A DNA stretch of 64,000 bases from the NCBI RefSeq assembly GCF_023101085.1, contig NZ_CP064703.1, positions 3,100,001-3,164,000 on the forward strand, written 5' to 3'. A program made the translations under genes and the position numbers. This DNA is from Bradyrhizobium sp. 170 (lineage in GTDB: Bacteria > Pseudomonadota > Alphaproteobacteria > Rhizobiales > Xanthobacteraceae). Positions 31,655 to 54,022 of the stretch are shown here, one piece after another (position 1 is the first letter of the stretch; each line of letters begins with the position of its first letter). The notes beneath the pieces were generated by a model, which worked only from the letters and a program-made list of their open reading frames with translations, was not told the origin of the DNA and made no database searches.

Positions 31655-34600
31655 CTATTCCTGCCGGATCCGGCCGACCGCCGCCTGGATACCGGTCCAG
31701 GCAGGCTTGTCCGGGGCGAATTGCCGCCGCAGATAGGCGGCCAGTTCCGCGACCTGGCCGTCGGTCAGGCTCTCCTTGAAGGCCGGCATATAGCCGAGGT
31801 CGGTTGCGGCCGGCTTCGCGATACCGTGCAGGATGAGCTGAATCAGATTGTCAGGCACGGCGCTGTGCAGATTGCTGTTCAGCGCCAGCGATGGCCGGCT
31901 GCCAAACAACGGCGCGCCACCGACCTCGTGACACACTGCGCAGGCGCCCTGGTAGATCCGGGCACCGACACTGGATGCGGCGTGCGCCCGGGTGCCGGTC
32001 GCGGCTTCGAGGCTGGCGGCGAGCGCTTGCTGCGCCGGCTTGTCGATGGCCTTGTCGTTGAACGAGCCGAGATAGACCGCCATGGCGCGGATGTCGGAAT
32101 CGGGAAGTGCTGCGAGTTCCTTCACCACCGGCGCCATCGGCCCCGCTGCGACGCCATGAAAGCGGGATTCTCCGGTCCGCAAGTACGCGTACAGTTCGTC
32201 CTCACTCCACGGGATCGGCGCCAGCGACAAGGACGTCAGCGCAGGCGCTTCCCAGCCTTCCGCAAATCCGCCGGCGAGATAGGCGTTCGCCTTCTCCGCG
32301 CCCAGTGCATTGCGCGGCGAATGGCAGGCGCTGCAATGGCCGAGGCCTTCGACCAGATAGGCCCCGCGATTCCAGATCTCGGACTTGGCCGGGTCGGGCT
32401 GGAATACGGTCGGCGTGTGGAACAGCGCATTCCATCCCGCCATCAGCGGGCGCAGATTGAACGGAAACGCGAGGGTGTTGTTCGGCGTCTCCGCGCGCAC
32501 TGCCGGCTGCGCCATCAGATAGGCATAGAGCGCCTGCATGTCGGCGTCGGTCGTCCTGGCGAAATGCGGATACGGGAATGCCGGATAGAGATGCCGGCCG
32601 TCGCGATGGATGCCCTCGCGCATCGCGCGCTCGAAGGCCGGATAGGACCATGCGCCGATTCCGGTTTCGACATCGGGGGTAATGTTGGTGCTGTAGATCG
32701 TGCCGAACGGAGTCTCCAGCGGCTTGCCGCCAGTGTTGAGCACTCCGTTTGTACTTGTATGGCAGACCGCGCAGTCGCCGAGCGCAGCGAGTTGCTGGCC
32801 GCGCGCGATGGTCGCGGCCGAATAGACCGAGGCATCGGGCCGCGCGATCGGTGCGATCGCGCGCCACGGCAGCACTGCAGCGCCGATGCCGATCGCGGCG
32901 GCGCACAGCGCTGCGGCTGTCGCGAACACGCCGCGGCGTGCGGCGAACGGATTGCGCCACCTGTCCGGGGCGGGCTGTGGCGCGGATATCGGCGACGGCA
33001 ACGCCTCCGGCGCTGCCTGTTCCTCGCCGCGCAATCCGCGCAGGATGCGTTCCGGCGTGAACGGCAACTCGCGAAAGCGCACACCGGTCGCATCATAGAT
33101 CGCGTTGGCGATGGCCGCAGCACTTGGAACGGAGGCGGACTCGCCGACACCGAGCGGCGGCTGGTCCTGCCGCGGCAACATCAACACGTCGATCTTGGGC
33201 ACTTCGGGGAATTTGATGATGGGGTAGGCGCCCCATTCCCGCGCCGTTACCGACGTGCGGTCGAACGAAACTTCCTCCATCAGCGCGCGGCTGGTCGACT
33301 GGATGACATTGCCATGGATCTGGTGGCGAACGCCGTCCGGGTTGATCATCAGGCCGGAATCCTGGCCGGCAACGACGCGCGTCACGCTGACATCGCCGGT
33401 CGCCTTGTTGACGGCGACGTCAGCGATCCAGGCCGACCACGCCGCGCCATAGCCGGGAAACTTGCTGTGCACATAGAGCGCATAGGCAAAGCCGCGCCCG
33501 CGCACGATGTCGCCTTCGGCTTCCGGTTCCTGCCACATCGGCCGCGGCTTCCAGCCCGCGCGCTCGGCCACCGCATTGACGAGATCGACCGCGCGCGAAT
33601 CCTTCAGATAGCGCAGGCGATATTCGATCGGGTCGACGCCGGCTTCATCAGCGCATTCGTCGATCCAGGATTCATGCGCAAAGGTGTTCGGCAGCGCCGA
33701 GACGCCGCGCAGCCAGGAGGCGCGCACGATCGGTGGCATGTCGTTGGCCACCACGCGCAGATTCTCGTAGTCGTAGGGCGGGATCGCGGTGCGGTCGCCC
33801 ATCTCGAAGACTACTGGCGTGTGCGGGATCGTGCCGGTCAAAAGCAGCGCCAGCGTCGGTGCGCCGTTCGATGGATAGCGCGTGGCAAAATCATAACCGG
33901 CGACGCTGCCGTCGGCGTTCAGTCCGCCATTGACGTCCATCAACTGCGCGGTGCCCTTGGGCTCCCACGCATGCTCCTGCTCGCGCGTCAATTGCACGCG
34001 CACAGGGCGGCCGACGGCGCGCGACAGCAGCACCGCGTCGGCGGAGACGTCGTCGGCGCAGTTGCGGCCGTAGCAGCCGGCGGCTTCCATCCGGATCACC
34101 TCGATCTCGGCTTCGCGGCGATGGATCAGCCGCGCCAGCTCGGTGCGCAGATGGTGCGGATTCTGCGTCCCGGACCAGACCCGCGTCTGATCCTCCTGAT
34201 AGTCGGCGACCGCGCAGGACGGGCCGATCGAGGCGTGCATCTGATAAGGCCAGATATAAGTCCGCGGCATCGGCTTGGCGGCACCGGCAATCGCCGCATC
34301 GACGTTGCCCTTGTCGATCAGCGTTCGCGGCGCAGACGGATTGGCGCGCAGCGCGGTCTCGATGTCCTTCAGGTCGGGCAGCGTCGGCACCGGCTTCCAG
34401 CTCACCTTGAGCTGCGCTGCGGCCTTGATCGCATTTTCCTCGCGCTCGGCGACCACGCCGACGAAGTCGCCGATCCTGACGACGGCGACAAGTCCGGGGA
34501 TGTCGCATACCGAGGTCTCATCCACCGCGATCAGGCTGGTGCCGATGAAGTCGCCGACATCGACACCGGCATAGGGCGGACGGACGACGCGGCCATGCAG

Positions 34601-35209
34601 CATGCCGGGAACGCGCATATCGTGGACGTAGACCAGCTCGCCGGTTGCCTTCGCCGGCAGATCGACGCGCGGCACCGACTGGCCGACGATGCTGTAGGCG
34701 CTGGCGGGCTTGACCGGAACATCATCCGCCAATTCAAGCTGGATGGTCTCGCCCGCGATCAGTTCGCCATAGCTGATGCTGCGATTGTCCTGGCCGTGGA
34801 TCAGGCCGTCTTCAACAATGAGATCATCAACCGGAAGCTCCAGCCGCGCCGCGGCACGCGCGATCAGAAACTGCCGCGCCTGCGCCGCAGCCTTGCGCAA
34901 CGGCACGGCGGTGATCTGGATCGTTTCGCTCGCGATCGTTGCGCCCTGATTGGGCACGAGAGACGTATCGCCGAGTACGACGACGACGCGCGCAAAGGAC
35001 ACGTCGAGTTCCTCCGCGACGATCTGGCCGAGCGCGGTGCGGATGCCGGTGCCGAGATCGACATGGCCGTTATAGGCGGTGACCGATCCGTCGGCGGTGA
35101 TCCTGATGAAGGTCTCGAACTTGACGGCCTCGACGGGAGAGGCGGGACGAACGACGGACAGCGTGCCTTGCAGCCGGTTGTGATCCTCGGTCGTGTCGGG
35201 AGCCGTCAT
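31655..35209 (-). CDS. nicB: Nicotinate dehydrogenase large subunit: molybdopterin hydroxylase fused to tri-haem cytochrome c
   Basis: 1184 residues from the ATG at 35209, whose first base is the last... shared with the nicA stop (TGATG); a GTG at 35212 is the alternative. The first 740 residues are a xanthine-dehydrogenase-family molybdopterin subunit (YNGHVDLGTGIRTALGQIVA near 40, then GRGFAYALYVHSKFPGYG near 575). A hydrophobic helix near 765-790 (AALCAAAIGIGAAVLPW) precedes three CxxCH haem motifs at about 813, 959 and 1090. Length and layout match Pseudomonas putida NicB (about 1187 residues), which hydroxylates nicotinate to 6-hydroxynicotinate and passes electrons through its cytochrome domain to the respiratory chain. 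The hnr and ena neighbours support this substrate. Confidence 0.88.
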   Translation of the reverse strand: MTAPDTTEDHNRLQGTLSVVRPASPVEAVKFETFIRITADGSVTAYNGHVDLGTGIRTALGQIVAEELDVSFARVVVVLGDTSLVPNQGATIASETIQITAVPLRKAAAQARQFLIARAAARLELPVDDLIVEDGLIHGQDNRSISYGELIAGETIQLELADDVPVKPASAYSIVGQSVPRVDLPAKATGELVYVHDMRVPGMLHGRVVRPPYAGVDVGDFIGTSLIAVDETSVCDIPGLVAVVRIGDFVGVVAEREENAIKAAAQLKVSWKPVPTLPDLKDIETALRANPSAPRTLIDKGNVDAAIAGAAKPMPRTYIWPYQMHASIGPSCAVADYQEDQTRVWSGTQNPHHLRTELARLIHRREAEIEVIRMEAAGCYGRNCADDVSADAVLLSRAVGRPVRVQLTREQEHAWEPKGTAQLMDVNGGLNADGSVAGYDFATRYPSNGAPTLALLLTGTIPHTPVVFEMGDRTAIPPYDYENLRVVANDMPPIVRASWLRGVSALPNTFAHESWIDECADEAGVDPIEYRLRYLKDSRAVDLVNAVAERAGWKPRPMWQEPEAEGDIVRGRGFAYALYVHSKFPGYGAAWSAWIADVAVNKATGDVSVTRVVAGQDSGLMINPDGVRHQIHGNVIQSTSRALMEEVSFDRTSVTAREWGAYPIIKFPEVPKIDVLMLPRQDQPPLGVGESASVPSAAAIANAIYDATGVRFRELPFTPERILRGLRGEEQAAPEALPSPISAPQPAPDRWRNPFAARRGVFATAAALCAAAIGIGAAVLPWRAIAPIARPDASVYSAATIARGQQLAALGDCAVCHTSTNGVLNTGGKPLETPFGTIYSTNITPDVETGIGAWSYPAFERAMREGIHRDGRHLYPAFPYPHFARTTDADMQALYAYLMAQPAVRAETPNNTLAFPFNLRPLMAGWNALFHTPTVFQPDPAKSEIWNRGAYLVEGLGHCSACHSPRNALGAEKANAYLAGGFAEGWEAPALTSLSLAPIPWSEDELYAYLRTGESRFHGVAAGPMAPVVKELAALPDSDIRAMAVYLGSFNDKAIDKPAQQALAASLEAATGTRAHAASSVGARIYQGACAVCHEVGGAPLFGSRPSLALNSNLHSAVPDNLIQLILHGIAKPAATDLGYMPAFKESLTDGQVAELAAYLRRQFAPDKPAWTGIQAAVGRIRQE

Positions 35210-35691
35210 CACGTCTGGGCCTCAACGGCACGGCCTGCGGCCCGCATCGCCGCACGCATGATCTCGATATGCGCGCCGCAACGACACAGATGATGGCGCA
35301 GCGCTTCCAGCACTTCATCGTCCGACGGGTGAGGGGAACGCAACAACAAGGCCTTGGTCGCGATGATCATGCCGTTGAGGCAATAGCCGCATTGCGCGGC
35401 CTGCTCGCGGATGAAGGCCTGCTGCACCGGATCGGGATGCTCGCGCGTGCCGAGACCTTCGAGCGTCACGATGTCGCGCCCGGTGCAGCCTTCGATAGGG
35501 ATCACGCAGGAGCGCGCGGCGACGCCGTCGATCAGCACGGCGCAGGCGCCGCATTCGCCGAGACCGCAACCATATTTCGGCCCGTTCAAGGCGAGGTCGT
35601 TGCGCAGGACATAAAGCAATGCGGTGTCGGGCGCGGCGTCGACGTTGTGAGTCTTGCCGTTGACGGTCAGGCGCATCATGCTCTGCGTCAT
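35209..35691 (-). CDS. nicA: Nicotinate dehydrogenase small subunit, two [2Fe-2S] clusters
   Basis: 160 residues. Plant-type cluster ligands in YGCGLGECGACAV near residue 41 and the following C in VAARSCVIP; second cluster ligands in AAQCGYCLNGM near 98 and HHLCRCGAHIEI near 135. This is the standard iron-sulfur subunit of molybdenum hydroxylases. Size and wording (NGPKYGCGLGECGAC, VQQAFIREQAAQCGYC) fit NicA of the cytochrome-linked nicotinate hydroxylase. GAGGGA lies just upstream of the start at 35691. Its stop overlaps the nicB start, so the subunits are made in step. A palindromic operator sits between the promoter-like boxes upstream. Confidence 0.9.
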   Translation of the reverse strand: MTQSMMRLTVNGKTHNVDAAPDTALLYVLRNDLALNGPKYGCGLGECGACAVLIDGVAARSCVIPIEGCTGRDIVTLEGLGTREHPDPVQQAFIREQAAQCGYCLNGMIIATKALLLRSPHPSDDEVLEALRHHLCRCGAHIEIMRAAMRAAGRAVEAQT

Positions 35692-35872: not shown

Positions 35873-35915
35873 TTGACAGCGTTCAAGTCCGCGCGCAACA
35901 TCATTCGTATACGAA
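35873..35915 (+). promoter_or_regulatory. Predicted hnr promoter and operator
   Basis: A perfect TTGACA at 35873-35878 is followed after 17 bases by CAACAT (35896-35901), a weak -10. The perfect 12-base palindrome TTCGTATACGAA at 35904-35915 covers the expected transcription start. The same palindrome, with one or two changes, recurs in the ena/fpr gap at 51589-51614 and at nicA. The predicted binding protein is the NicR-like MarR repressor at 43805-44260. Confidence 0.6.
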
Positions 35916-35977
35916 CAAAGTGATCGGGCCGTGAGGAAACGGCTCCGATCGGCGCCTTCTCGACTGCAGGCTTGTTC

Positions 35978-37426
35978 ATGACCGATGCGACCGTCGCCGG
36001 TGGCGACAAGATCCGCTGCGATGCCTGTCCGGTGATGTGCTACATCAAGCCGGGCGCGGGCGGCGCGTGCGATCGTTATGCCAATCACAACGGCGAGCTG
36101 GTGCGCGTCGATCCGCACATCGTGCTGGAGCAGACGGTATCGCATGGCGGACGGCTGGTGCCGTTCCAGGCCGGCGGCGGTGATTGGGACGGCAAGATCG
36201 TCCACGAGCCGAACGTGTTCGTCACCGCCATCGGTGCCGGCACCACCTATCCCGATTACAAGCCGGCACCCTTCATCGTGTCCTCGGAAGTCGACGGCGT
36301 CGACATGGTCACGGTCGTGACCGAGGGCATTTTCAGCTATTGCGGCGTCAAGGTGAAGATCGACACCGACCGCTACCTCGGCCCCGAGACGGCGACGGTC
36401 CGTGCGGAAGGCGAGGCGATCGGCCATGTGACGACCAGCGAGTATGGATCGCAGATGCTGTCGCTTGGCGGCGTGCATCATCTGACCGGCGGTTCCAAGA
36501 AGGAGGGCCGCGTCACCTGCGACGCGCTGATGGATCTCTCCAATTGCAAGCCGGTGGAACTGACGATCGACGGTGGCGCTATCGTCGTGGTGCAGGCCGG
36601 CCATCCCCCTATCGTCAATGGCGTTGCCGAAGAGCGTATGCGGGTGGGCTGCGGCTCCGCAACCATCGGCATGTTCGCCAAGCAATGGCATGGCAAGGTC
36701 GATGAAGTCGTGGTCGTGGACGATCACATCACCGGCGTTCTCTCGGAACACCAGGCCGGCAAGCTGCTGGATATTCCCGATACCGGGATCAAGATGAAGG
36801 GGCGGCGCTCGACGCCGGGCCGTTATTTCCAGGTCGCCGAGCCCGGCACCGGCTGGGGCGGCACGAATATTTCCGATCCGCTGTCAGTGCTCGGGCCGTT
36901 CAATCCGAAGGAGGCGCGGCCCGGCCTGACCATGCTGATGGTCTCGACCACGGGCGAGCACGCGGCCTACTACGAACTCGATGAGGCGCTGCGGCCGATC
37001 GAAAAGCAGATGCCGCCCGATCTCCGTTTCTCGGTCGAGCGCATCCAGGAGAATTGCGAGCCTGCGCTGTGCACGGTGCTGTTCATGGGCGGCGCCGGCG
37101 GCTCGCTGCGTGCCGGCGTTACCGACAATCCGGTGCGGCTGACGCGCTCGGTCAAGGATGCGTTGACGCGGGTCACCAGCGGCGGTGCGCCGGTCTATGT
37201 CTGGCCGGGCGGCGGGATCACCTTCATGGTCGACGTCACGCAGATGCCAGCGGGTGCGTTCGGCTATGTGCCGACGCCGGCGCTGGTGGCGCCGATCGAG
37301 TTCACGCTGCGGCTCTCGGATTACGCCGCGCTCGGCGGCCACATGGATCATGTGCGTCCGCTGGCGTCGCTGCGGGACAATACCGAGCTCCGCCCGATGC
37401 CTTATATGCCGGGACGGCGCGCATGA
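35978..37426 (+). CDS. hnr: 6-hydroxynicotinate reductase
   Basis: 482 residues from the ATG at 35978; an in-frame TTG lies at 35972. The N-terminus carries an iron-sulfur-like cysteine cluster (IRCDACPVMCYIKPGAGGAC, Cys 14, 17, 21 and 31), with further cysteines in VTCDALMDLSNC, MRVGCGS and ENCEPALC. The whole sequence reads as the 6-hydroxynicotinate reductase family. In Eubacterium barkeri this enzyme reduces 6-hydroxynicotinate to 1,4,5,6-tetrahydro-6-oxonicotinate and holds a covalently bound flavin, one [2Fe-2S] and two [4Fe-4S] clusters. Here it opens the catabolic operon, divergent from nicA. No canonical [ST]GA[ST] flavinylation motif is seen. Its stop overlaps the UPF0280 start (ATGA). 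Confidence 0.88.
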   Translation: MTDATVAGGDKIRCDACPVMCYIKPGAGGACDRYANHNGELVRVDPHIVLEQTVSHGGRLVPFQAGGGDWDGKIVHEPNVFVTAIGAGTTYPDYKPAPFIVSSEVDGVDMVTVVTEGIFSYCGVKVKIDTDRYLGPETATVRAEGEAIGHVTTSEYGSQMLSLGGVHHLTGGSKKEGRVTCDALMDLSNCKPVELTIDGGAIVVVQAGHPPIVNGVAEERMRVGCGSATIGMFAKQWHGKVDEVVVVDDHITGVLSEHQAGKLLDIPDTGIKMKGRRSTPGRYFQVAEPGTGWGGTNISDPLSVLGPFNPKEARPGLTMLMVSTTGEHAAYYELDEALRPIEKQMPPDLRFSVERIQENCEPALCTVLFMGGAGGSLRAGVTDNPVRLTRSVKDALTRVTSGGAPVYVWPGGGITFMVDVTQMPAGAFGYVPTPALVAPIEFTLRLSDYAALGGHMDHVRPLASLRDNTELRPMPYMPGRRA

Positions 37427-38331
37427 AACGGCTCCCGCAAATCGCACTTCTTCCTGACGGCAAGCGGCTGCATTTGCAGGACGGTCCGATCGATCTGATC
37501 ATCGAGGCGAAGGGAAGTGAAATCGACGTACGCGCTGCTTACGAGACTGCGGCGCGGCGCTTCACCGGCCTGCTCGATGAACTCTGCGAGGAACTGGTGG
37601 AACTGCGAACGGCCGTCGATCCCGTTCGGTGCACGTTGAAAGGTATCGTCGCGCGCCGCATGCATGCGGCCGTCGCGCCGTTTGCAACGGCTGCCTTCAT
37701 CACGCCGATGGCGGCAGTGGCGGGTAGCGTCGCGGAAGAAATTCTCGGCTCGATGCTTGCCGCGGCGCGGCTCGACCGTGCTTACGTCAACAATGGCGGT
37801 GACATAGCGCTGCATCTCACCGGTGGCGAGCAATTCACCGTCGGGCTGATGGATCGGCCGGACCGGCATGGCTTGATGCGCACGACGGTGATTGACGCCG
37901 ACGATCCGGTGCGGGGCGTTGCGACCAGCGGGCGGCACGGCCGCAGCTTTTCGCTCGGTATCGCGGATGCCGTCACCGTGCTGGCGAAAACGGCATCGCA
38001 GGCGGATGCCGCGGCCACCGTCATCGCCAATGCCGTCGACTTGCCCGGCCATCCCGCCATCGTCCGCTGTCCGGCGAATGAATTGCAGCCCGACAGCGAC
38101 CTCGGCGCACGCCTCGTCACCCGCGGCGTCGGCGCACTCGGGGAAGGCGAAATCGACGATGCGTTGAGGGCAGGGGTCAGCCGGGCACAACAATTGCTCG
38201 TGGCGGGATTGATCGAAGGTGCGGCCTTGCGTCTACTAGGCGAGACGGCCGTGGTGGGTGCAACTGGGATCAAGGCAGGCGCGTTGCCGGCGTTTCATGA
38301 AAGGTCACTTGAAAGAATAGCGCATGTTTGA
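37423..38331 (+). CDS. UPF0280 family protein (ApbE-like), candidate flavin transferase for Hnr
   Basis: 302 residues. It resembles the UPF0280 family, which is structurally related to the flavin transferase ApbE. Visible blocks: MHAAVAPFATAAFITPMAAVAGSVAEEILG from about residue 83, YVNNGGDIALHL near 122 and VRGVATSGRHGRSFSLGIADAVTVLA from about 163. The NGGD and TSG-x2-G-x-S-x3-GIADA patterns echo ApbE's nucleotide and metal sites. The start overlaps the hnr stop. Since the studied 6-hydroxynicotinate reductase carries covalent flavin, the simplest inference is that this protein attaches it. That role has not been shown, and no other function is known to me. Confidence 0.8.
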   Translation: MKRLPQIALLPDGKRLHLQDGPIDLIIEAKGSEIDVRAAYETAARRFTGLLDELCEELVELRTAVDPVRCTLKGIVARRMHAAVAPFATAAFITPMAAVAGSVAEEILGSMLAAARLDRAYVNNGGDIALHLTGGEQFTVGLMDRPDRHGLMRTTVIDADDPVRGVATSGRHGRSFSLGIADAVTVLAKTASQADAAATVIANAVDLPGHPAIVRCPANELQPDSDLGARLVTRGVGALGEGEIDDALRAGVSRAQQLLVAGLIEGAALRLLGETAVVGATGIKAGALPAFHERSLERIAHV

Positions 38332-38349: not shown

Positions 38350-38934
38350 ATGAGCGCGATCATTCGCAAGATCGTCACGGTGGTCGAGGAGACTCATCTG
38401 GAGATGGGGCAGAAGGTTGCGCCGCCGACGCGGCGCGCCGCGGCGATCGCCGTGATCGAGAATCCTTTTGCAGGCCGGTACGTCGAGGATCTCTCGCCGC
38501 TGATCGAAATCGGTGAGGAGCTCGGCGAGCTGCTTTCGAAGAAGGCAGTCGCGGCGCTCGGCATCGACGGCGCCAAGGCGCACAGCTACGGCAAGGCCGC
38601 AGCCGTCGGCGAAAACGGCGAACTGGAGCACGCGGCCGCGATCCTGCATCCGAAGATGGGCGCGCCGGTGCGCAAAGTCCTGAGCAAGGGCGCGGCGCTG
38701 ATTCCCTCGTCGAAGAAGCGCAGCGGGCCGGGAACGACGCTGGATATTCCGCTCGGCCACAAGGACGCGGCCTTCGTGCGCAGTCATTTCGACGGGATGG
38801 AAGTGCAGATCAATGACGCGCCGCGCGCCAACGAGATCATGGTCGCGGTTGCGGTTACCGACAGCGGCAGGCCATTGCCGCGGGTCGGCGGACTAACGGT
38901 TTCGGAAGTCAAAGGCGAAGACGGTTTGAGATAA
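38350..38934 (+). CDS. DUF1185 'amino acid synthesis' family protein
   Basis: 194 residues, family length. The pattern IRKIVTVVEETHLEMGQ at the N-terminus, AAAIAVIENPFAGRYVEDL near 30, AAAILHPKMGAPVRKVLSKG near 95 and MVAVAVTDSGRPLPRVGGL near the end is that of DUF1185 (named amino acid synthesis family, function unproven). It lies 18 bases after the UPF0280 gene in the hnr operon. A role in processing the ring-opened product, such as 2-formylglutarate, would fit the gap in the pathway, but that is inference. DUF1185 genes elsewhere accompany ABC importers and hydrolases. Confidence 0.8.
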   Translation: MSAIIRKIVTVVEETHLEMGQKVAPPTRRAAAIAVIENPFAGRYVEDLSPLIEIGEELGELLSKKAVAALGIDGAKAHSYGKAAAVGENGELEHAAAILHPKMGAPVRKVLSKGAALIPSSKKRSGPGTTLDIPLGHKDAAFVRSHFDGMEVQINDAPRANEIMVAVAVTDSGRPLPRVGGLTVSEVKGEDGLR

Positions 38935-38958
38935 TTCACAGGGATATTGGAGGTAGGG

Positions 38959-40161
38959 ATGCGACGGAGACACTTACTGGGCGCGGGACTGGCGATTGCG
39001 GTTGCGGGCATGGCGGGCAACGCCATGGCGCAGGGCGAGATCAAGATCGGCGAGATCAACAGCTACTCGCTGTTGCCCGCCTTCACCGAACCGTATCGCA
39101 AGGGCTGGCAGCTTGCGGTCGAGGAAGTCAACGCGGCGGGCGGCATCAACGGCAAGAAGCTCGTCGTCATCTCCAAGGACGATGGCGGCAAGCCGGCGGA
39201 TGCGCAGACGGCGGCCAACGAACTGGTGTCGAGCGAGAACGTGGCGATGCTGACCGGGACATTCCTGTCCAACATCGGTCTGGCCGTCAGCGATTTCGCC
39301 AACCAGAAGAAAGTATTCTTTCTGGCGGCAGAACCTTTGACAGACGCCATCACCTGGTCCAAGGGCAACCGCTACACCTTCCGCCTGCGTCCTTCCAACT
39401 ACATGCAGGCGGCGATGCTGGTGGAAGAAGCCGCGAAGCTCCCGGCCAAGCGCTGGGCGACGATTGCGCCGAACTATGAATACGGCCAGTCGGCGGTCGC
39501 GGTGTTCAAGAAGCTGATGTCGGAGAAGCGGCCCGATATCCAGTGGGTCGACGAGCAGTGGCCGCCGCAGGGCAAGATCGACGCCGGTCCGGTAGTGCAG
39601 GCGGTTGCCGCCGCCAATCCCGAGGCGATCCTCAACGTCACCTTCGGCGCCGATCTGGTAAAACTCGTGCGCGAGGGCAACACCCGCGGCCTGTTCAAGG
39701 GGCGCTCGGTGGTATCGTTCCTCACCGGCGAGCCGGAATATCTCGACCCACTGAAGGACGAGACGCCCGAGGGCTGGATCGTCACCGGTTACCCCTGGTA
39801 CGACATCAAGACGCCGGACCATGACAAGTTCCTGAAGGCCTATCAGGCCAAGTACAATGACTATCCACGTCTTGGTTCGATCGTCGGCTATCAGACCATC
39901 AAGGCCGCTGCGGCAATCCTTGCGAAAGCCAATTCGACCGATCCGGAGAAGCTGATTGCCGCCACCGAAGGCCTGTCGATGCCGTCGCCATTCGGCGAGA
40001 TCACCTTCCGCAAGATCGATCACCAATCGACGCTTGGCGCCTATGTCGGCAAGACCGCGCTGAAGGACGGCAAGGGCGTAATGGTGAACTCGGTCTATCG
40101 CAAGGGCACGGATTATCTCCCGAGTGACGCGGAAGTTGCCAAGCTGCGTCCGAAGGATTGA
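38959..40161 (+). CDS. LIV-type ABC transporter substrate-binding protein of the nicotinate operon
   Basis: 400 residues from the ATG at 38959, with GGAGG at 38949-38953. The signal peptide MRRRHLLGAGLAIAVAGMAG ends near AMAQ; its three arginines could be a Tat-like start. The mature part (EIKIGEINSYSLLPAFTEPY, NAAGGINGKKLVVISKDDGG) is a type-1 periplasmic binding protein. It stands between the DUF1185 gene and the matching permease and ATPases, so it likely binds nicotinate, 6-hydroxynicotinate or a related pyridine acid in the periplasm. The ligand is inferred from context only. Confidence 0.88.
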   Translation: MRRRHLLGAGLAIAVAGMAGNAMAQGEIKIGEINSYSLLPAFTEPYRKGWQLAVEEVNAAGGINGKKLVVISKDDGGKPADAQTAANELVSSENVAMLTGTFLSNIGLAVSDFANQKKVFFLAAEPLTDAITWSKGNRYTFRLRPSNYMQAAMLVEEAAKLPAKRWATIAPNYEYGQSAVAVFKKLMSEKRPDIQWVDEQWPPQGKIDAGPVVQAVAAANPEAILNVTFGADLVKLVREGNTRGLFKGRSVVSFLTGEPEYLDPLKDETPEGWIVTGYPWYDIKTPDHDKFLKAYQAKYNDYPRLGSIVGYQTIKAAAAILAKANSTDPEKLIAATEGLSMPSPFGEITFRKIDHQSTLGAYVGKTALKDGKGVMVNSVYRKGTDYLPSDAEVAKLRPKD

Positions 40162-40396: not shown

Positions 40397-42283
40397 ATGG
40401 CCTTTTACTTCGTTCAGTTCCTGACCGGTCTCGCCAGCGCGGCGTCGCTGTTTCTGGTCGCGTCGGGGCTGTCGATCATCTTCGGCGTGACGCGGATCGT
40501 GAACTTCGCCCATGGCGCGTTCTACATGCTCGGCGCCTATGTCGCGTTCACGTTGACCGAACGCTTTTCCGGCGCGCTTGGCTTCTGGGGCGGCATCGTC
40601 GTCGCGGCGCTGGTGGTGGCGGTTGTCGGCGTACTGGTCGAGATGGTGCTGCTGCGGCGGATCTACCATGCGCCGGAACTGTTCCAGTTGCTCGCAACCT
40701 TCGGCCTGACCTTGATGGTCCAGGATATCGTGGTGCTGATCTGGGGGCCGGACGATCTGCTCGGCCGCCGCGCGCCCGGCTTCAAGGGTGCGGTCGACTT
40801 CTTCGGACAGAATATTCCGAGCTATGATTTGTTCCTGATCGCGCTCAGTCCGATCGTGCTCGGCGTTCTGTGGCTGCTGTTCCAGCGCACGCGCTGGGGC
40901 GTGCTGGTGCGCGCGGCGACGCAGGACCGCGACATGGTGGCGGCGCTCGGCGTCAATCAGAAATGGCTGTTCACCAGCGTGTTTGCGCTCGGCGTGTTTC
41001 TCGCGGCGCTCGGCGGCGCGCTGCAGATCCCGCGCGATGCCGTGCATCACGCGCTGGATCTTCGCATCATCGTCGAAGTGTTCGTGGTGGTGGTGATCGG
41101 CGGCCTCGGCAGCATCATCGGCGCTTTCGTTGCCGCTGTGCTGGTGTCCGAGCTCAACGCGTTCGGCATTCTCATTTTCCCGAAGATATCCATCATCCTG
41201 GTGTTCCTGGTGATGGCGGTGGTGCTGATCGTGCGGCCGTGGGGCCTGTTCGGCAAACCGGAAGCGGCCGCGCGCCGCACGCCGGGCCTGACCGTCACGC
41301 CCTGGCGACCGCTCACCTCCGGTGAACGCTGGATCTCACTCGGCGCGCTGGTCCTTGCGGCGATGCTGCCGCTGTTCGCTGGAAATTACGCGCTCACAGT
41401 CGGCTCGGAGATCGCAATCTTCGTGATCTTTGCCGCCAGCCTGCACTTCCTGATGTCGGTCGGCGGGCTCGCCTCGTTCGGCCACGCCGCTTATTTCGGG
41501 CTTGGCGCCTATGGCGTCGCGTTCCTCGCCAAGGCGGCGGGGCTACCGATGATCGTCTCGCTTCTGCTGGGTCCGGTGCTGGGCCTGCTCGGCGCCGCCG
41601 TGTTCGGCTTCTTCGCCGTGCAACTCTCCGGCGTCTATTTTGCGATGCTAACGCTCGCCTTTGCGCAGATCGTCTGGTCGATCGCGTTCCAGTGGGTAGC
41701 GGTGACCGGCGGCGACAACGGCGTTCTGGGCGTCTGGCCGGAGAAGTGGGCCGCGGGCCCGGCCGCGTTCTACTGGCTGTCGCTCGGCATCGCCGCGCTC
41801 GCGGTCACCGTGCTGCGGGTGATCGTGTTCTCGCCATTCGGCTTCGCGTTGCGCGCGACGCGGGACTCGCCGCTGCGCAGCGAGGCGATCGGCATCAACG
41901 GCAAGCGCGTGCAATGGACGGCCTTCGTCATATCAGGCACGGTGGCAGGGATTGGCGGCGCGCTGTTCGCCTATCTGAAGGGAAGCGTCTTCCCTGACAG
42001 CCTCGGCATCTCGCTGTCGGTCGATGCGCTGGTCATGGTGCTGCTCGGCGGCGTCGAGACGGTTTCCGGTGCCGTTATCGGCGCCATCGTATTCAAGGCG
42101 GCCAATATCTGGCTGGTCAGCCAAACTGATTTGTCCAAGCTGGTTCTGGGCGGCTTCATCGTGCTGATGGTGGTGGCCTTCCCCAAGGGAATCGTCGGCA
42201 CGCTGGAGACGATCAGGAATCGCTGGCGATCCCCCGAGAAAAAATCCGCGCTTGCTACCTCCCGCGTCGAGGTTGCCGAATGA
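40397..42283 (+). CDS. Fused LivH-LivM ABC transporter permease
   Basis: 628 residues, about twice the length of a single LIV permease. The first half (1-290, starting AFYFVQFLTGLASAASLFLVASGLSIIFG, with RIVNFAHGAFYMLGAY near 34) is LivH-like and the second half (from about 305, with SVGGLASFGHAAYFGLGAYG near 352 and SPLRSEAIGINGKRVQW near 491) is LivM-like. About 16 membrane helices are expected. The fusion puts both permease halves in one chain. Its stop overlaps the ATPase start. Confidence 0.9.
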   Translation: MAFYFVQFLTGLASAASLFLVASGLSIIFGVTRIVNFAHGAFYMLGAYVAFTLTERFSGALGFWGGIVVAALVVAVVGVLVEMVLLRRIYHAPELFQLLATFGLTLMVQDIVVLIWGPDDLLGRRAPGFKGAVDFFGQNIPSYDLFLIALSPIVLGVLWLLFQRTRWGVLVRAATQDRDMVAALGVNQKWLFTSVFALGVFLAALGGALQIPRDAVHHALDLRIIVEVFVVVVIGGLGSIIGAFVAAVLVSELNAFGILIFPKISIILVFLVMAVVLIVRPWGLFGKPEAAARRTPGLTVTPWRPLTSGERWISLGALVLAAMLPLFAGNYALTVGSEIAIFVIFAASLHFLMSVGGLASFGHAAYFGLGAYGVAFLAKAAGLPMIVSLLLGPVLGLLGAAVFGFFAVQLSGVYFAMLTLAFAQIVWSIAFQWVAVTGGDNGVLGVWPEKWAAGPAAFYWLSLGIAALAVTVLRVIVFSPFGFALRATRDSPLRSEAIGINGKRVQWTAFVISGTVAGIGGALFAYLKGSVFPDSLGISLSVDALVMVLLGGVETVSGAVIGAIVFKAANIWLVSQTDLSKLVLGGFIVLMVVAFPKGIVGTLETIRNRWRSPEKKSALATSRVEVAE

Positions 42284-43071
42284 GCATGGTCCCCACATTG
42301 CTGTCGGTCGAGGGCTTAAGCAAATCCTATGGTGGCGTCCATGCCGTGCGCAGCGTGTCGTTCGAACTGCGCGCGGGCGAAATCCTGGCCCTGATCGGGC
42401 CCAACGGTGCCGGCAAGAGCACATGCTTCGACATGCTCAACGGCCAGAACATCCCGGACAGCGGCCGGATCAATCTGCTCGGCGAGGATACGGTCGGCCG
42501 AAAGCCGCGCGCGATCTGGCGGCTCGGCGTCGGGCGCACATTCCAGATCACCGCCACGTTCCCGACCATGACCGTGCGCGAGAACGTGCAGGTCGCGCTG
42601 GTGTCTTATGGCAGGCAATTGTTCAATCTCTGGGGCTCGACCGCAGGTTACGCGCGCGAGGAGGCGGGCCGGCTGCTCGATCTCGTTGGCATGGGCGCCT
42701 ATGCCGGGCGTCCGTGCGGCGAGCTCGCCTATGGCGATCTCAAGCGGCTCGAGCTTGCGATCGCGCTCGCCAACCAGCCTAAATTGCTGCTGATGGACGA
42801 GCCGACGGCGGGCATGGCGCCGCGCGAGCGGATCGAACTGATGCGGCTCACCGCGCGCATCGCCCGCGAAAAATCGATCGGCGTGCTCTTCACCGAGCAC
42901 GACATGGACGTGGTGTTCGAACACGCCGACCGCATCCTGGTGCTGAACCGCGGCAGCCTGATCGCCGAAGGCTCGCCCGAGCAAGTCCGCGGTAATCCGC
43001 AGGTGCGTGCGATCTATCTCGGCGAAGGCCTTGTGTACGACGCACGTCACCGCGAGGGAGCCGGCGCATGA
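42280..43071 (+). CDS. livG: LIV-type ABC transporter ATP-binding protein (LivG-like)
   Basis: 263 residues, start overlapping the permease stop (ATGA); a second ATG at 42286 is possible. Walker A ALIGPNGAGKSTCFDML near residue 38, a LAYGDLKRLELAIAL signature near 148 (LAYGD instead of LSGGQ, normal for LivG), Walker B KLLLMDEPTAGMAP near 168, then TEHDMDVVFEHADR. It belongs to the importer of this operon. Confidence 0.9.
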   Translation: MSMVPTLLSVEGLSKSYGGVHAVRSVSFELRAGEILALIGPNGAGKSTCFDMLNGQNIPDSGRINLLGEDTVGRKPRAIWRLGVGRTFQITATFPTMTVRENVQVALVSYGRQLFNLWGSTAGYAREEAGRLLDLVGMGAYAGRPCGELAYGDLKRLELAIALANQPKLLLMDEPTAGMAPRERIELMRLTARIAREKSIGVLFTEHDMDVVFEHADRILVLNRGSLIAEGSPEQVRGNPQVRAIYLGEGLVYDARHREGAGA

Positions 43072-43772
43072 AGCTGCAGGTCGCCGATCTCAACAGCTTT
43101 TACGGTCCGGCGCATATCCTGTTCGATATCGCGCTGGAAGTCGGCGAGGGCGAAGTGGTGGCGCTGCTCGGGCGCAACGGCGCCGGCAAGTCGACCACGT
43201 TCCGCTCCATCGTAGGTCTCGTCGAGAACCGCTCGGGACGGATTGTCTTCGAAGGCAAGGATGTCTCGCGCGAGCCGACACACGCGATCGTGCGCGGCGG
43301 GCTCGGCTACGTGCCGGAAGAGCGGCGCATCTTTACCGACCTGACGGTCGAGGAAAATCTCGAAGTCGGACGCCAGCCGAAACGGCCAAACGCACCGCAG
43401 TGGACGCGCGAAAAGCTGTTCACGCTGTTTCCGAACCTCGGCGAAATGCGCAACCGCCCGGGCGGGCGCATGAGCGGCGGCGAACAGCAGATGCTGACCA
43501 TCGCGCGAACGTTGATGGGCAATCCGTCGCTGGTGCTGCTTGACGAGCCGTCCGAAGGGCTATCGCCGAAGATCGTCGAACAGATGGTCGAAGCCATCCT
43601 CGCGATGAAGCGCGAAGGCGTCAGCATCGTGGTCTCGGAGCAGAACCTGCATTTCGCACGGCTGATTTCGGACCGCGCCTACATCATCGAGCGCGGCAAG
43701 ATCTGCTTCGGCGGCACGATGGCGGAACTAGACGCGCGGCCGGATATCCGGGACGCGCATCTGTCGCTGTAA
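43068..43772 (+). CDS. livF: LIV-type ABC transporter ATP-binding protein (LivF-like)
   Basis: 234 residues, coupled to the previous gene by an ATGA overlap. Walker A ALLGRNGAGKSTTFRSI near residue 35, GYVPEERRIFTDLTVEENLEVG near 84 (the LivF hallmark), signature MSGGEQQMLTIARTL near 135 and Walker B SLVLLDEPSEGLSPKIVEQM near 152. It forms the second ATPase of the importer. Confidence 0.92.
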   Translation: MKLQVADLNSFYGPAHILFDIALEVGEGEVVALLGRNGAGKSTTFRSIVGLVENRSGRIVFEGKDVSREPTHAIVRGGLGYVPEERRIFTDLTVEENLEVGRQPKRPNAPQWTREKLFTLFPNLGEMRNRPGGRMSGGEQQMLTIARTLMGNPSLVLLDEPSEGLSPKIVEQMVEAILAMKREGVSIVVSEQNLHFARLISDRAYIIERGKICFGGTMAELDARPDIRDAHLSL

Positions 43773-43804: not shown

Positions 43805-44260
43805 ATGGCAAGGAGTGTTTCGCCGAAACGAGCGGTCAAGCCTGCGCGGCCGTCTTACATACTCGACGAGCAGATCGGCTTCATCCTGCGCCAGGTGTGG
43901 CAGCGCCATGCTACCATCTTCGCCCGCGAGATCGGTATCAATCTGACGTCGGCGCAATGGGCGGCGCTGGCGAAACTGACCGAGACCGGGCCGTGTTCGC
44001 AAAACCTGCTGGGCCGTTTGACGGCGATGGACGTCGCGACCATCAAGGGCGTGATCGACCGCCTTACCGCGCGCGGGTTGACCGAGACCAGCCCGGACCC
44101 CGAGGACGGCCGCCGCTTGCTCGTAAGTCTGACGCGCGCCGGCCAGCAACTGGCCGAGAAGGCCGCACCGAACGCGCTTGCGATCTCGCGCGAGACGCTG
44201 GCGCCACTCGATGCCAAGGAGCGCGAGATACTGATCGCGTTGCTCGACAAGTTGCGTTGA
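43805..44260 (+). CDS. nicR: MarR family transcriptional regulator, NicR-like
   Basis: 151 residues. The winged-helix core is visible: YILDEQIGFILRQVWQRHATIF as the dimer helix, TSAQWAALAKLTETGPCSQNLLGR as the helix-turn-helix approach, MDVATIKGVIDRLTARGL as the recognition helix, and SPDPEDGRRLLVSLTRAG as the wing. As far as I can judge by memory, the wording is close to NicR of Pseudomonas, the MarR-type repressor of nicotinate genes that responds to 6-hydroxynicotinate. It is the last gene of the hnr operon, 32 bases after livF. Its probable targets are the GTATAC-centred palindromes upstream of nicA, hnr, ena and fpr. The regulatory role here is inferred. Confidence 0.8.
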   Translation: MARSVSPKRAVKPARPSYILDEQIGFILRQVWQRHATIFAREIGINLTSAQWAALAKLTETGPCSQNLLGRLTAMDVATIKGVIDRLTARGLTETSPDPEDGRRLLVSLTRAGQQLAEKAAPNALAISRETLAPLDAKEREILIALLDKLR

Positions 44261-44947: not shown

Positions 44948-44949
44948 AT

Positions 44950-46953: not shown

Positions 46954-46992
46954 TTCGAAGCGCAGCGATGCAAGTCGGCGGAGAGTTCCGCT

Positions 46993-47418: not shown

Positions 47419-47439
47419 GACTGCCTCTCACGCTCCCTA

Positions 47440-47487: not shown

Positions 47488-47499
47488 AAATCAACGAGA

Positions 47500-47540: not shown

Positions 47541-49136
47541 GGGGGATAGTGCGACGCGGAACCCGTGTGTGGGATATCGCACGTTGGTGTCGTAGCTGCC
47601 GCGGCTTGACGTCCGGGCATAGTCTGAGTCTTTCCTCCAGGAGCCGGAACGGATGACGTGCGAGGGACATGCATTCTCGACCCACGCTGATCCGTCCGCC
47701 GGAGCGCCTTGATAATTTCTGTGCCAGCAGTCTTCGACCCATTGATCGACGGCGCCGCCCATATCGAATAGGCCAAACGGGTTTGGCTTCAGGCTGCCGA
47801 CCTTCACCGGCTGATCGATGGCTGGAATGTCACTGCAGTTCTTGCAATTGACCATGCCGGGCTGAAGCTGATCGCCCCACCAAAATCTGGTCTGCGTGCC
47901 GCCACGCGCCGCATATTCCCATTCGGCTTCGCTCGGCAGCCGATACGGCTTGCGGGTGGTTTCGGCGAGCCAGGCAGCGTACTGCTTTGCGTCGCTCCAG
48001 CTTACGTTTCCAACAGGCGCATCGTCCTTTCCGCTCGCCGTAAACCCACATGCCTTTGCGGCGGCGCATGCATTCCATTCCCGCACGGAGACGGGAAATT
48101 TCCCCATCGCAAACGGCTTGACCGTTACCTGACGGACCGGTTTTTCCGAAACATCTTCGTTGCTGCCCATCGCGAAGCTGCCACCCCGAAGCGTGACCAT
48201 TTCGGGTTCTCGAATCGACGCAGCCGCCTGCGTGGCTGGTTGACCCGCAGGCGCGTCGGGTGAAGCGGACGACGGTAGCGGCGCGGCCTGTTTGGGTTCC
48301 GGAGAAGGCGCAGGCTGAGGCGCCGCCTGCTGCTGCGTTGGGGCCACCGTCGGCGCAGGCTGGGCGGGCGGCGCTGGTGGTTTTGCGGCGGGCGCCTTCT
48401 GCACTTCAGCCGGAGGCGAAACGGGAGCCGAAACCAGACCTGGCAACTTGCCGGTTGGCGAGAACGTGTACCAGAGAACGCCGCCCGCAAGGAGCAGCAG
48501 CGCAAGGATCAGCAAGGAGACCAGAATGCCTTCGCGCCGCTTCCGGTTTTGCAGAAGCGCATTCGGATCGGAAAGCACGCGATAGACCCGCACCGGGTCG
48601 GTGATGTTCTTGACATGGCGATCACCGAGCGACTCGTATCCGCAAACCAGCTTGTGCTTTATCTGTTCGTAGATGCCGCCGGAGATATAGACTTCGCCGG
48701 GATGGGCTATGCCTTCAAGCCGCGTGGCGATATTGACGCCGTCGCCGTAAACGTCGTCGGTCTCAATGATGACATCGCCGAGATTGACGCCAATTCGATA
48801 CTCGATCCAATGATGCTTCGGCAGTGCCGCATTGCGTCCCACCAGATTTTGCTGAATTACGATGCTGCAGCGGACAGCTTCGACAGGACTATCGAAAATC
48901 GCAATGAACCCGTCGCCGGTGGTTTTAACAAGCCTGCCGTGATGCTCTACGATGCTGGGTTCGATGAGATCGCGCTCGATGCGCTTGACACGGTTGTGCG
49001 TGCCCTCTTCATCGATTTGCATCAGGCGGCTGTAACCGGAGATATCGCCTGCCACGATGGCCGCAAGGCGGCGCGGCGTTGGTTCGCGTGGTGGCGCGCC
49101 AAATTTGCCTGACTTGATGTCACGAATCTGGGCCAT
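47538..49136 (-). CDS. Membrane class III adenylate cyclase fused to an FGE-sulfatase-like domain
   Basis: 532 residues from the ATG at 49136 (MAQIRDIKSGKFGAPP). Residues 20-190 are a class III cyclase: AAIVAGDISGYSRLM with metal Asp 31, LVKTTGDGFIAIFD with Asp 75, and GDGVNIATRLE with Asn 135 and Arg 139, so it looks catalytically complete. One membrane helix at about 203-223 follows, then a Pro/Ala/Gln-rich linker to about 300. Residues 305-532 are a formylglycine-generating-enzyme-like domain (MVTLRGGSFAMGSNED, YRLPSEAEWEYAARGG, GFRVAL at the end). The C-terminal region RSGSWRKDSDYARTSSRGSY lacks the active-site Cys of true FGE, so this is probably a periplasmic binding or sensing domain. 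Confidence 0.88.
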   Translation of the reverse strand: MAQIRDIKSGKFGAPPREPTPRRLAAIVAGDISGYSRLMQIDEEGTHNRVKRIERDLIEPSIVEHHGRLVKTTGDGFIAIFDSPVEAVRCSIVIQQNLVGRNAALPKHHWIEYRIGVNLGDVIIETDDVYGDGVNIATRLEGIAHPGEVYISGGIYEQIKHKLVCGYESLGDRHVKNITDPVRVYRVLSDPNALLQNRKRREGILVSLLILALLLLAGGVLWYTFSPTGKLPGLVSAPVSPPAEVQKAPAAKPPAPPAQPAPTVAPTQQQAAPQPAPSPEPKQAAPLPSSASPDAPAGQPATQAAASIREPEMVTLRGGSFAMGSNEDVSEKPVRQVTVKPFAMGKFPVSVREWNACAAAKACGFTASGKDDAPVGNVSWSDAKQYAAWLAETTRKPYRLPSEAEWEYAARGGTQTRFWWGDQLQPGMVNCKNCSDIPAIDQPVKVGSLKPNPFGLFDMGGAVDQWVEDCWHRNYQGAPADGSAWVENACPSHVIRSGSWRKDSDYARTSSRGSYDTNVRYPTHGFRVALSP

Positions 49137-49480
49137 GGCTCGGATTGTTCCAAGAGCTGTAAATGACAGCGTGAGGCAAACAATCTTTCCAGCGCCAATA
49201 GGGTAGCATATTGAGGGTATGTCGCAAGCGAGCGCGCGACGGCCACGAATGCGTGGAACCGTCACCGATAGCGGTCGGACGGATCGCGACCAACCACCGG
49301 TATGGATCTTCCGATACTGTGGCACGCTTACCCGCATCGAACGAGCGGGTTTCATCGGGCGCTTGGAATGATGGCGATATTGCAACAGGACTTGGCCTTG
49401 ATGCTCTTCTCGGGTGAGTTCCCGCGCTGGCGGTGCAGACGAGCGTTGCGACGGTAAAATTCAACGCTAATTCGCGTAGC
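49137..49480. other. Non-coding gap between the cyclase gene and an unknown membrane protein gene
   Basis: 344 bases with no supported gene on either strand. Short frames here lack codon bias or recognisable residues. The first part must carry the cyclase promoter. I saw no clear repeat, hairpin or operator. Confidence 0.5.
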
Positions 49481-50221
49481 TCAATCCGGCCCCGGCCATT
49501 TGGCGCGATAGCGAATTTCGCTGCCGTCGATATTCGGCTGCCACGGTCCAAGTTCGGATGTATGCGGCGCCTTGGCTGACAGTCCGATACTGTAGAGCCT
49601 GTCGGGCTGGCCTTTGACCTTGATCTCCAGCTGCCGATGCGCGGTGCGGAACGCCAGTTCGACGTCGCCCGCGATTACCGGCCTGTCGCCGTCGCTACGG
49701 AACCGGTTGAAGCGTGGCTCACCCGGCATGCGGTTGATGTCGGTCTGCAGTTCGATCGCTATGTCACGGACAGAATTCGGCAGTGCCGCTCCTGCGGGCA
49801 GACGAACTTCAAAGACGAGAAGTGGGGTGGCGGCATTCGGGTTGAGCCAGGGCGTGGCTGATGTGACCGCGTAGACATAATAGGAGACGCCGGCCGCCAC
49901 GCAGAGTGCGACGACAACGGCAAGTGCCTTCAGGCTGTTACGCAAAAGTGTGCCGGTGTTTTCTCCGCCGCGCAGCCGCCTCGCCAGAGCCGTGCCGAGC
50001 ACGAGGCCGCCGATCGCGCCGCACGGCGCAAACACCAGCAGCGCCAGAATACCGGACATGATGGGGTCGGCCCGGTTTCCGAAGCCGAGCAGCTCCAGCA
50101 TCAGCAGTGTGGCGATAAAGCCCACGACCGCACCAACTACGCCGCCGGCGACTTGCAGCGAATTTTTCACGTATCCCTCGATGACCAGAGCAAAGCAGGC
50201 TGCCAGCAAGGCAGCCCGCAT
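49481..50221 (-). CDS. Unknown membrane protein with C-terminal soluble domain
   Basis: 246 residues. Four hydrophobic segments are visible in the first 125 residues (around 1-16, 22-45, 55-80 and 98-118), the second and third rich in Gly, followed by a soluble beta-rich part with LLVFEVRLPAGAALPNSVRD and VIAGDVELAFRTAHRQLEIK. No family is recognised. The start at 50221 has no strong ribosome site, so an internal start is possible. It lies upstream of the cyclase-FGE gene on the same strand, 344 bases away, and may or may not be related to it. Confidence 0.65.
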   Translation of the reverse strand: MRAALLAACFALVIEGYVKNSLQVAGGVVGAVVGFIATLLMLELLGFGNRADPIMSGILALLVFAPCGAIGGLVLGTALARRLRGGENTGTLLRNSLKALAVVVALCVAAGVSYYVYAVTSATPWLNPNAATPLLVFEVRLPAGAALPNSVRDIAIELQTDINRMPGEPRFNRFRSDGDRPVIAGDVELAFRTAHRQLEIKVKGQPDRLYSIGLSAKAPHTSELGPWQPNIDGSEIRYRAKWPGPD

Positions 50222-50313: not shown

Positions 50314-51513
50314 TCAATGCCCGATGATGATCTCCGGCACTTTCCCGGCCGGCGGCGTGTTGCGGCTACGCTGGGTGCGGACGATGCCGTCGATGATGGT
50401 CATGCCGATGCCGGGCAGGTCGCCGAGCTGCACGCTTTCAAGGATGTTCTTGCCGGGTGAATGCTGCGCCTTGTCCATCAGGACGAAATCGGCGGAGCGG
50501 CCGACTTCGATGATGCCGCAATCCAGCTCGCGCATGCGGGCGGTGTTGCCGGTCGCAAGGCAGAAGGCGAGTTCGGCCGGCAGGTCGCCGAGCGAGGACA
50601 GCATCGAGACCATGCGCAAGATGCCGAGCGGCTGCACGCCGGAGCCGGCCGGCGCATCGGTGCCGAGGATGACGCGGTTGAGGTCGCCCATCTCGCGCGC
50701 GATGCGCAGCGTGAACAGCGCCGAGCGTTCGTTGCCGTTGTGAACCAGTTCCAGCCCGCGCTTGCAGCCCTCGCAGATGCAGCGGATCTGGTCGTCGGGC
50801 AGGGCGGTGTGGCCACCATTGATATGGCCGACTACGTCGGTGTCGGCTTCCAGCACCACGTCCTTGTCGATCAGGCCGGAGCCGGGGATCGAGGGACCGC
50901 CGGTGTGGATCGTGCTCTGGATGCCATACTTGCGCGCCCATCCGACCATTTTCCGCGCGGTCGGGCCATCCTTGACGCCGCCTAAGCCCACTTCGCCGAG
51001 CAGCTTGACGCCGGCCGCGGCCAATTCCTTGAAATCGTCCTCGACCATCTCGCATTCGATCACTGGCGCGCCGGCATGCACCTTCACGCCGCCGGGGCGG
51101 AGCGTCCAGAATGCGCGCTGCGCGAAGATCGCCATCGCCTTCAGGCCGACGACGTCGCGGGGGCGGCCGGGCATATGCACTTCACCAGCGGAAATCATGG
51201 TGGTGACGCCGCCGTGGAGATAGCTGTCGATCCAGTTGAACTGGTTCTGCCGCGGCGTCCAGTCGCCGGCGACGGGATGGACATGGCTGTCGATCAGGCC
51301 CGGCGCGACGGTGGTGCCGTTGGCATCGACAACGGTGGTGGCGCCCTCGGTGTCGACGTCCTTGAAGCGTCCGATGGCAGTGATCTTGCCATTCTCGGCC
51401 ACGATCGTATCGCCGTCCAGGATCGGCTTTTCCAGCGCCCCCGACAGCAGCAGCCCGATGTTGCGGATCACCAGCTTGTTCGGGCCGGTCGCCTGGGGTG
51501 CATCGTGGGCCAT
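50314..51513 (-). CDS. ena: Enamidase (1,4,5,6-tetrahydro-6-oxonicotinate hydrolase)
   Basis: 399 residues from the ATG at 51513. It is a binuclear-metal amidohydrolase: GLIDSHVHPVAGDWTPRQNQ near residue 70 (HxH), LLGEVGLGGVKDGPTARKMV near 172, IHTGGPSIPGSGL near 203, VGHINGGHTALPDDQ near 228 and VILGTDAPAGSG near 280 (Asp). The phrases HGGVTTMISAGEVHMPGRP, PLGILRMVSM and the tail SRNTPPAG match what I recall of Eubacterium barkeri enamidase closely. That Fe-Zn enzyme opens tetrahydro-6-oxonicotinate to 2-formylglutarate and ammonia, the step after Hnr. It is divergent from fpr across two operator-like palindromes shared with the nicA/hnr region. Confidence 0.88.
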   Translation of the reverse strand: MAHDAPQATGPNKLVIRNIGLLLSGALEKPILDGDTIVAENGKITAIGRFKDVDTEGATTVVDANGTTVAPGLIDSHVHPVAGDWTPRQNQFNWIDSYLHGGVTTMISAGEVHMPGRPRDVVGLKAMAIFAQRAFWTLRPGGVKVHAGAPVIECEMVEDDFKELAAAGVKLLGEVGLGGVKDGPTARKMVGWARKYGIQSTIHTGGPSIPGSGLIDKDVVLEADTDVVGHINGGHTALPDDQIRCICEGCKRGLELVHNGNERSALFTLRIAREMGDLNRVILGTDAPAGSGVQPLGILRMVSMLSSLGDLPAELAFCLATGNTARMRELDCGIIEVGRSADFVLMDKAQHSPGKNILESVQLGDLPGIGMTIIDGIVRTQRSRNTPPAGKVPEIIIGH

Positions 51514-54016: not shown

Positions 54017-54022
54017 TGCTTC

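Follow-up and report, generated by a model that had tools for sequence, protein, structure and literature searches.

A nicotinate degradation gene cluster in Bradyrhizobium sp. 170: a published aerobic pathway with a proposed flavin transferase, a linked ferredoxin--NADP+ reductase and, in relatives, varying hydroxylases and candidate ring openers

The 64,000 nucleotides of Bradyrhizobium sp. 170 analyzed in this work (the window; C1:3100001-3164000 of a single-contig genome of 9,195,219 bases) harbor a gene cluster that very probably represents the nicotinate pathway of Azorhizobium and Bradyrhizobium, in which we propose roles for a UPF0280 protein, a ferredoxin--NADP+ reductase (Fpr) and a MarR-family regulator. 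The pathway is known and already published; parts of it are unreported and deserve testing. A nicotinate hydroxylase, the 6-hydroxynicotinate reductase Hnr and an enzyme opening the ring of 1,4,5,6-tetrahydro-6-oxonicotinate (THON) are present in one genome, the combination that characterizes the Hnr-type reductive pathway of aerobes. In the proposed reaction sequence, nicotinate would be taken up through an ATP-binding cassette (ABC) transporter and converted by NicAB to 6-hydroxynicotinate, with the electrons passing to cytochrome c. Hnr, an iron-sulfur flavoprotein, would then form THON, the ring of which would be hydrolyzed by the enamidase Ena to 2-formylglutarate and ammonia. UPF0280 may attach the flavin of Hnr covalently, NADPH may power the low-potential reduction in an aerobe via the cluster-encoded Fpr and a ferredoxin, and a BpsR-like MarR protein may govern hnr and ena-fpr via the palindrome TTCGTATACGAA. 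The elements are the following:

30281..31585, minus strand: nicotinate phosphoribosyltransferase (NAPRTase, nicotinate salvage branch), adjoining nicB; TIGR01514 297.4 bits, cut-off 269.55
31655..35212, minus strand: nicB, molybdopterin subunit with fused cytochrome c domains at its C-terminus, 1185 amino acids; Pfam MoCoBD_1, MoCoBD_2, Cytochrom_C
35209..35691, minus strand: nicA, [2Fe-2S] subunit, 160 amino acids; Pfam Fer2, Fer2_2
35904..35915, no strand: palindrome TTCGTATACGAA, exact match, putative operator ahead of hnr
35972..37426, plus strand: hnr, 6-hydroxynicotinate reductase, 484 amino acids, from the names of database relatives and invariant Cys; ATG at 35978 as alternative start
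37423..38331, plus strand: UPF0280 (ApbE superfamily), 302 amino acids, proposed flavin transferase for Hnr; NF003322 420.8 bits, cut-off 290
38350..38934, plus strand: DUF1185 / PF06684 AA_synth protein; PF06684 250.4 bits, PDB 2qtp E=2e-87
38947..40161, plus strand: substrate-binding protein of the ABC transporter, presumably for taking up nicotinate; Peripla_BP_6
40397..42283, plus strand: ABC transporter permease (fused); BPD_transp_2, two stretches
42280..43071, plus strand: ABC transporter ATPase; ABC_tran
43068..43772, plus strand: second ABC transporter ATPase; ABC_tran
43805..44260, plus strand: MarR-family regulator, BpsR-like; PDB 2nnn E=1.7e-43, 6pcp E=5.1e-25
50314..51549, minus strand: ena, enamidase, 411 amino acids; PDB 2vun, residues 24-407, E=3.2e-108
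51589..51614, no strand: palindrome copies TTTGTATACGAA and ATCGTATACGAA between ena and fpr, one mismatch each
51659..52432, plus strand: fpr, ferredoxin--NADP+ reductase relative, divergent from ena; NF008178 157.9 bits, below the cut-off of 390

An initial annotation of this DNA had placed nicAB, hnr and ena together in the window, and all of them are indeed open frames with coding-type third-position guanine-plus-cytosine content and with support from domains, structures or names. Its span of 31655..51513 excludes two linked genes, fpr at 51659-52432 and that for NAPRTase at 30281-31585; neither was mentioned, nor were UPF0280, DUF1185 and the shared palindrome. Its ena gene stands, while the end it gave at 51513 perhaps marks a later start codon; the longer frame reaches 51549, with the match to 2vun beginning at residue 24. 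Similarity of Ena to 2vun is full-length and includes HxH, HTGG, HINGG and DAP stretches, which we take to be the metal ligands of an amidohydrolase. At E 0.001, neither Pfam nor NCBIfam places the hnr product in a family, and nothing in PDB matches it up to E=1; one Pfam match lies below threshold (GCV_T_C, E=0.02). Its database relatives are in part named 6-hydroxynicotinate reductase and in part hypothetical protein, the closest named ones among the best 80 of 385 hnr loci being B. algeriense (99%) and Bradyrhizobium sp. SRL28 (98%).

A survey of 397 Pseudomonadota genomes from 231 genera yielded 38 hnr-positive and 359 hnr-negative genomes. In an alignment of 37 Hnr sequences, C16, C19, C23, C33, C124, C227 and C362 are invariant and C183 is kept in 34, so that these eight Cys are enough for two [4Fe-4S] clusters. 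Eubacterium barkeri Hnr reportedly binds its flavin covalently (Alhapel 2006); the enzyme contains a [2Fe-2S] cluster besides two [4Fe-4S] clusters and works with ferredoxin. Left out of the alignment, yet kept in the counts of 38, was Hnr of genome G016, where hnr consists of two overlapping pieces in different frames (G016:C1:2969823-2971186; L136) and is either broken or affected by a sequencing error.

Work on this route by Alhapel 2006 and Kitts 1989/1992 predates Shettigar 2012. According to the latter article (PMC3511419), a cluster comprising the genes for the first three steps and an ABC transporter is conserved in A. caulinodans, B. japonicum USDA110 (blr3818-blr3830), R. palustris HaA2 and strain SG-6C, whose Hnr is 42% identical to that of E. 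barkeri. The initially proposed hybrid of aerobic hydroxylase and "anaerobic" route is therefore not a surprising one: the arrangement is the ordinary aerobic form. The route from NicAB via Hnr to Ena and the gene identities are supported by the domain and structure matches as well as by the published cluster. The two genes left without assignment in the description of that cluster are probably UPF0280 and DUF1185. The published cluster stems from the same family of organisms; in the window, several genes part ena-fpr from the rest. The distance between hnr and ena amounts to 13 kb here because other genes intervene, whereas ena directly follows marR in many Bradyrhizobium and Afipia relatives. 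Azorhizobium is also named alongside E. barkeri for the reductive route by Bokor 2022 (PMC9304392).

When the cluster is compared with the fermentation of E. barkeri, the Hnr and Ena steps are common to both, but the hydroxylase in the window is the cytochrome-linked NicAB. E. barkeri is said to use the selenium-containing hydroxylase NdhFSLM and to continue via 2-(hydroxymethyl)glutarate (Alhapel 2006). The later steps may follow the glutarate route of Azorhizobium, which Shettigar 2012 consider likely (PMC3511419). Genes for these steps were not found in the cluster, the genes of the window being only partly annotated and the genome not having been searched for that route.

The nic pathway of Pseudomonas and Bordetella shares the NicAB hydroxylase and a BpsR-akin MarR regulator with the cluster. 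There, 6-hydroxynicotinate is passed to NicC, whereas here it would go to Hnr. No NicC-like gene had been noticed in the window before, and in fact none of the 50 matches to PF01494 (FAD_binding_3) in the genome falls there. These 50 matches bear the possibility that a NicC encoded elsewhere also degrades 6-hydroxynicotinate and that Hnr serves a side branch. Twelve regions were fetched, ten of which were run on NCBIfam (not L165 and L166; L160 as a 349-residue piece) and four also on PDB. Two of the latter four do match NicC structures (L162 with 217-220 bits, L158 with 188-189 bits), but both score higher with tropone 2-monooxygenase (260-261 bits), and the other two are UbiH-like. A clear NicC was not found among these ten of the 50 matches, about 40 being unexamined, and a NicC-dependent main route is considered highly improbable. 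It is likewise highly improbable that nicotinate is incidental and that the cluster mainly serves a plant alkaloid product or a different 6-substituted pyridine. Sequence cannot tell the substrate, and the binding protein of the transporter resembles urea and branched-chain amino-acid types; on the other hand, a NAPRTase gene adjoins the cluster, Ena is closely related to 2vun, and either nicotinate or 6-hydroxynicotinate serves as sole carbon source for SG-6C, a strain with the cluster in its published form (PMC3511419).

The start of the UPF0280 gene overlaps the end of hnr by ATGA. The 38 hnr-positive genomes are precisely those of the 397 that also encode UPF0280, none of the 359 others doing so, and in all 38 the gene lies downstream of hnr on the same strand (with one marR-like gene in between in G155). 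Fisher's test of this co-occurrence, uncorrected for kinship, gives P values of 6e-54 when genomes are counted and 3e-28 when genera are, each protein being present in 19 of the 231 genera. An apparent Hnr-UPF0280 fusion (P0021) was dismissed, its joint reading like a frameshift over the ATGA overlap. Database sources name UPF0280 as ApbE superfamily, the NCBIfam name still being hypothetical protein, and the protein matches PDB 2o34 (E=7.7e-8). Across 38 aligned sequences, the GGD, TSG, AD and AT columns are invariant, with nearly invariant neighbors and an ADAxAT-type pattern; we take the GGD, TSG and ADAxAT-type columns to be ApbE-like motifs. A role as flavin transferase for Hnr appears fairly likely.

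Several observations weigh against such a role. The Pfam ApbE score of 16.5 bits is below the cut-off of 25.6, which is why the protein is filed only as UPF0280 and not as ApbE proper. His172 beside TSG is not conserved, leaving the catalytic His of Vibrio ApbE (PMC12052999) without an evident counterpart. The ApbE target motif given in the same paper is D-x-x-[S/T]-G-A-[S/T]; residues 378-384 of Hnr read SLR[A/S]G[V/A/I]T, with the Thr in 36 of 37 sequences and no Asp, and thus appear reminiscent of the full motif without equaling it. Since the Vibrio-type His is not kept and the Hnr motif is degenerate, flavin transfer by UPF0280 is a role we can only infer. All three points would fit UPF0280 being another kind of partner to Hnr, such as a subunit that binds flavin or substrate, or a chaperone, which is a serious though less probable explanation. 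It is opposed by the superfamily name, by the GGD, TSG, AD and AT columns being invariant in all 38 sequences and by the covalent flavin that E. barkeri Hnr reportedly contains (Alhapel 2006). The word nicotinate was not found in the main text of the ApbE review (PMC12052999). In the open-licence PMC literature nothing was found on UPF0280, by name or combined with ApbE or hydroxynicotinate, and no account of UPF0280 or HyuAB in a nicotinate pathway, which is not proof of novelty.

Further support for the proposed pathway comes from close kin, the best 80 hnr loci (L009-L088; 81 loci together with the window). We infer that Fpr would feed electrons to Hnr. Of the L009-L088 loci, 29 contain ena together with either fpr or 490 or more bases past ena; in 26 of these, fpr and ena diverge at a distance of 111-190 bases. 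A second Fpr gene, 62% identical to the one in the cluster, lies at C1:8691415-8692185, bringing the total in the genome to two. An exact copy of the palindrome TTCGTATACGAA stands at 35904 ahead of hnr; the stretch separating ena from fpr holds two further copies, at 51589 and 51603, each with a single mismatch. Five matches of this 12-base unit with up to two mismatches are present in the window (0.65 expected), a number reached in none of 100 shuffles; the remaining two, at 53271 and 60408 with two mismatches each, are outside the places of interest. Near hnr, a 20-base palindrome pattern found no second site and the 12-base unit gave one. Ahead of hnr the palindrome is kept with at most one mismatch in 79 of the 81 loci (L061 has two mismatches, L049 starts inside hnr), and between ena and fpr with at most two in 24 of 27. 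The following weighs against this reading. Three loci, L060, L062 and L064, lack fpr although they include ena and 490 or more bases past it. Among 26 loci from a wider set beyond Bradyrhizobium (L129-L154; 8 + 14 genome stretches, with two genomes represented twice, and 4 plasmids), fpr is found in just nine, and the unit is mostly absent ahead of hnr, being present only in L137 (one mismatch) and L139 (two mismatches).

The MarR-family protein resembles PDB 6pcp, which we take to be BpsR, since it agrees with the residue numbering of the BpsR paper. Of the four contacts to 6-hydroxynicotinate, Tyr15, Arg26 and His32 are kept and His23 is replaced by Phe. 6-Hydroxynicotinate relieves the DNA binding of BpsR (PMC6837509). 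That the MarR protein binds the palindrome is our guess.

Two steps of the pathway appear to be occupied by different enzymes in different hnr-positive genomes. Ena (at least 63% identity) is present in 23 of the 38, and HyuA, a caprolactamase-like protein (at least 60%), in 17. The latter comprise every one of the 15 Ena-less genomes plus G122 and G170, the sole genomes with both. These two limits were chosen after viewing the gap to the next matches (42-45%), and five Ena genomes with HyuA at merely 42-45%, within the E limit used, were scored negative. At the 60% limit HyuA is absent from all 80 hnr-negative control genomes, while the same query returned matches in 22 of the 38 positive ones. 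Of the 15 Ena-less genomes, nine have the HyuA gene no more than about 10 kb from hnr and six have it elsewhere. As for the hydroxylase, NicB (at least 59%) was found in 19 and an FAD/molybdenum (Mo) hydroxylase (at least 53%) in 20 of the 38, both occurring only in G223. The commonest pairs are Ena-NicB (16) and HyuA-Mo (12). The two slots vary separately, as the Mo type is the only hydroxylase in five of the Ena genomes and NicB the only one in two of the HyuA genomes. Genus-majority tables give 9 HyuA versus 10 Ena and 12 Mo versus 7 NicB, without overlap. In annotated examples, NicAB, HyuAB and fpr are combined in the Neorhizobium cluster, an FAD/Mo hydroxylase, an amidohydrolase 75% identical to Ena and fpr in Sulfitobacter, and Ena, fpr and NicAB in Comamonadaceae; the Pleomorphomonas cluster is of the HyuAB type, annotated there as acetophenone carboxylase.

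The nearest NCBIfam families of HyuA and HyuB from Neorhizobium (L137) are those of ATP-dependent caprolactamase (482.5 and 309.2 bits, cut-offs 1000). The CapAB caprolactamase (PMC8453981) is therefore the nearest relative, albeit below the cut-offs, of a pair that is encoded in the relatives and not in the cluster of the window. As caprolactamase opens a lactam and THON is a six-membered lactam, HyuAB is a candidate ring opener. A search of the open-licence PMC literature for hydroxynicotinate with hydantoinase, oxoprolinase or caprolactamase gave nothing relevant among the matches listed. The window does contain a HyuB/HyuA-type pair (4160-7869) of the ATP-dependent lactamase/carboxylase family. 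It is 33-34% identical to the type from Ena-less clusters and was set aside as a part of the pathway for this low identity.

DUF1185, whose fold is presumably RidA-like, follows UPF0280 in 37 of the 38 genomes (exception G134) and at E 1e-30 is also found in 14 of the 359 hnr-negative ones. In two of the hnr-negative genomes a 42-43% relative of Ena is encoded directly beside it (G235:C84:4131-5844; G199:C15:5077-6797), which hints at DUF1185 being a partner of the ring opener rather than of Hnr.

Taken together, these features allow a wider proposal, which we advance tentatively as one that may or may not hold. UPF0280 would constitute a family of cytoplasmic flavin transferases dedicated to Hnr and using its Asp-less motif SLRAGVT (Thr384, counted from 35972), HyuAB would be an ATP-dependent, CapAB-like lactamase replacing the enamidase in many relatives, and DUF1185 would perhaps free ammonia from the enamine product. 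The nicotinate pathway would then be an aerobic, NADPH/Fpr-driven and modular one with two exchangeable slots. Reduction of a pyridine ring in an aerobe demands low-potential electrons, for which the cluster suggests the linked Fpr as the source, just as it suggests UPF0280 as the means by which Hnr gains its flavin. If an ATP-dependent lactamase takes the place of enamidase, this would give pyridine breakdown a new way of opening the ring, of relevance to neonicotinoid residues and to the turnover of vitamin B3; 6-chloronicotinate joins the pathway at 6-hydroxynicotinate (PMC3511419).

The surroundings of the nicotinate genes are varied. Between marR and ena (44282-50221) are genes for a 221-residue protein without assigned function, SBP56 (methanethiol-oxidase-like), DUF4399 and an adenylate-cyclase/FGE-sulfatase fusion. 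On the far side of fpr (52444-58771) are genes for SoxA, SoxY and a sulfide dehydrogenase of the flavocytochrome c type and, at 56125-58311 and 58322-58771, for a second pair of molybdenum hydroxylase subunits. Beside nicB (28158-31585), genes for an O-acetylhomoserine sulfhydrylase-like protein and an alpha/beta hydrolase, neither seen in the available stretches of Afipia loci, accompany the NAPRTase gene. The latter adjoins nicB in many, not all, Bradyrhizobium and Afipia loci and has no copy in the stretches of L034, L061, L077, L083 and L085, for example.

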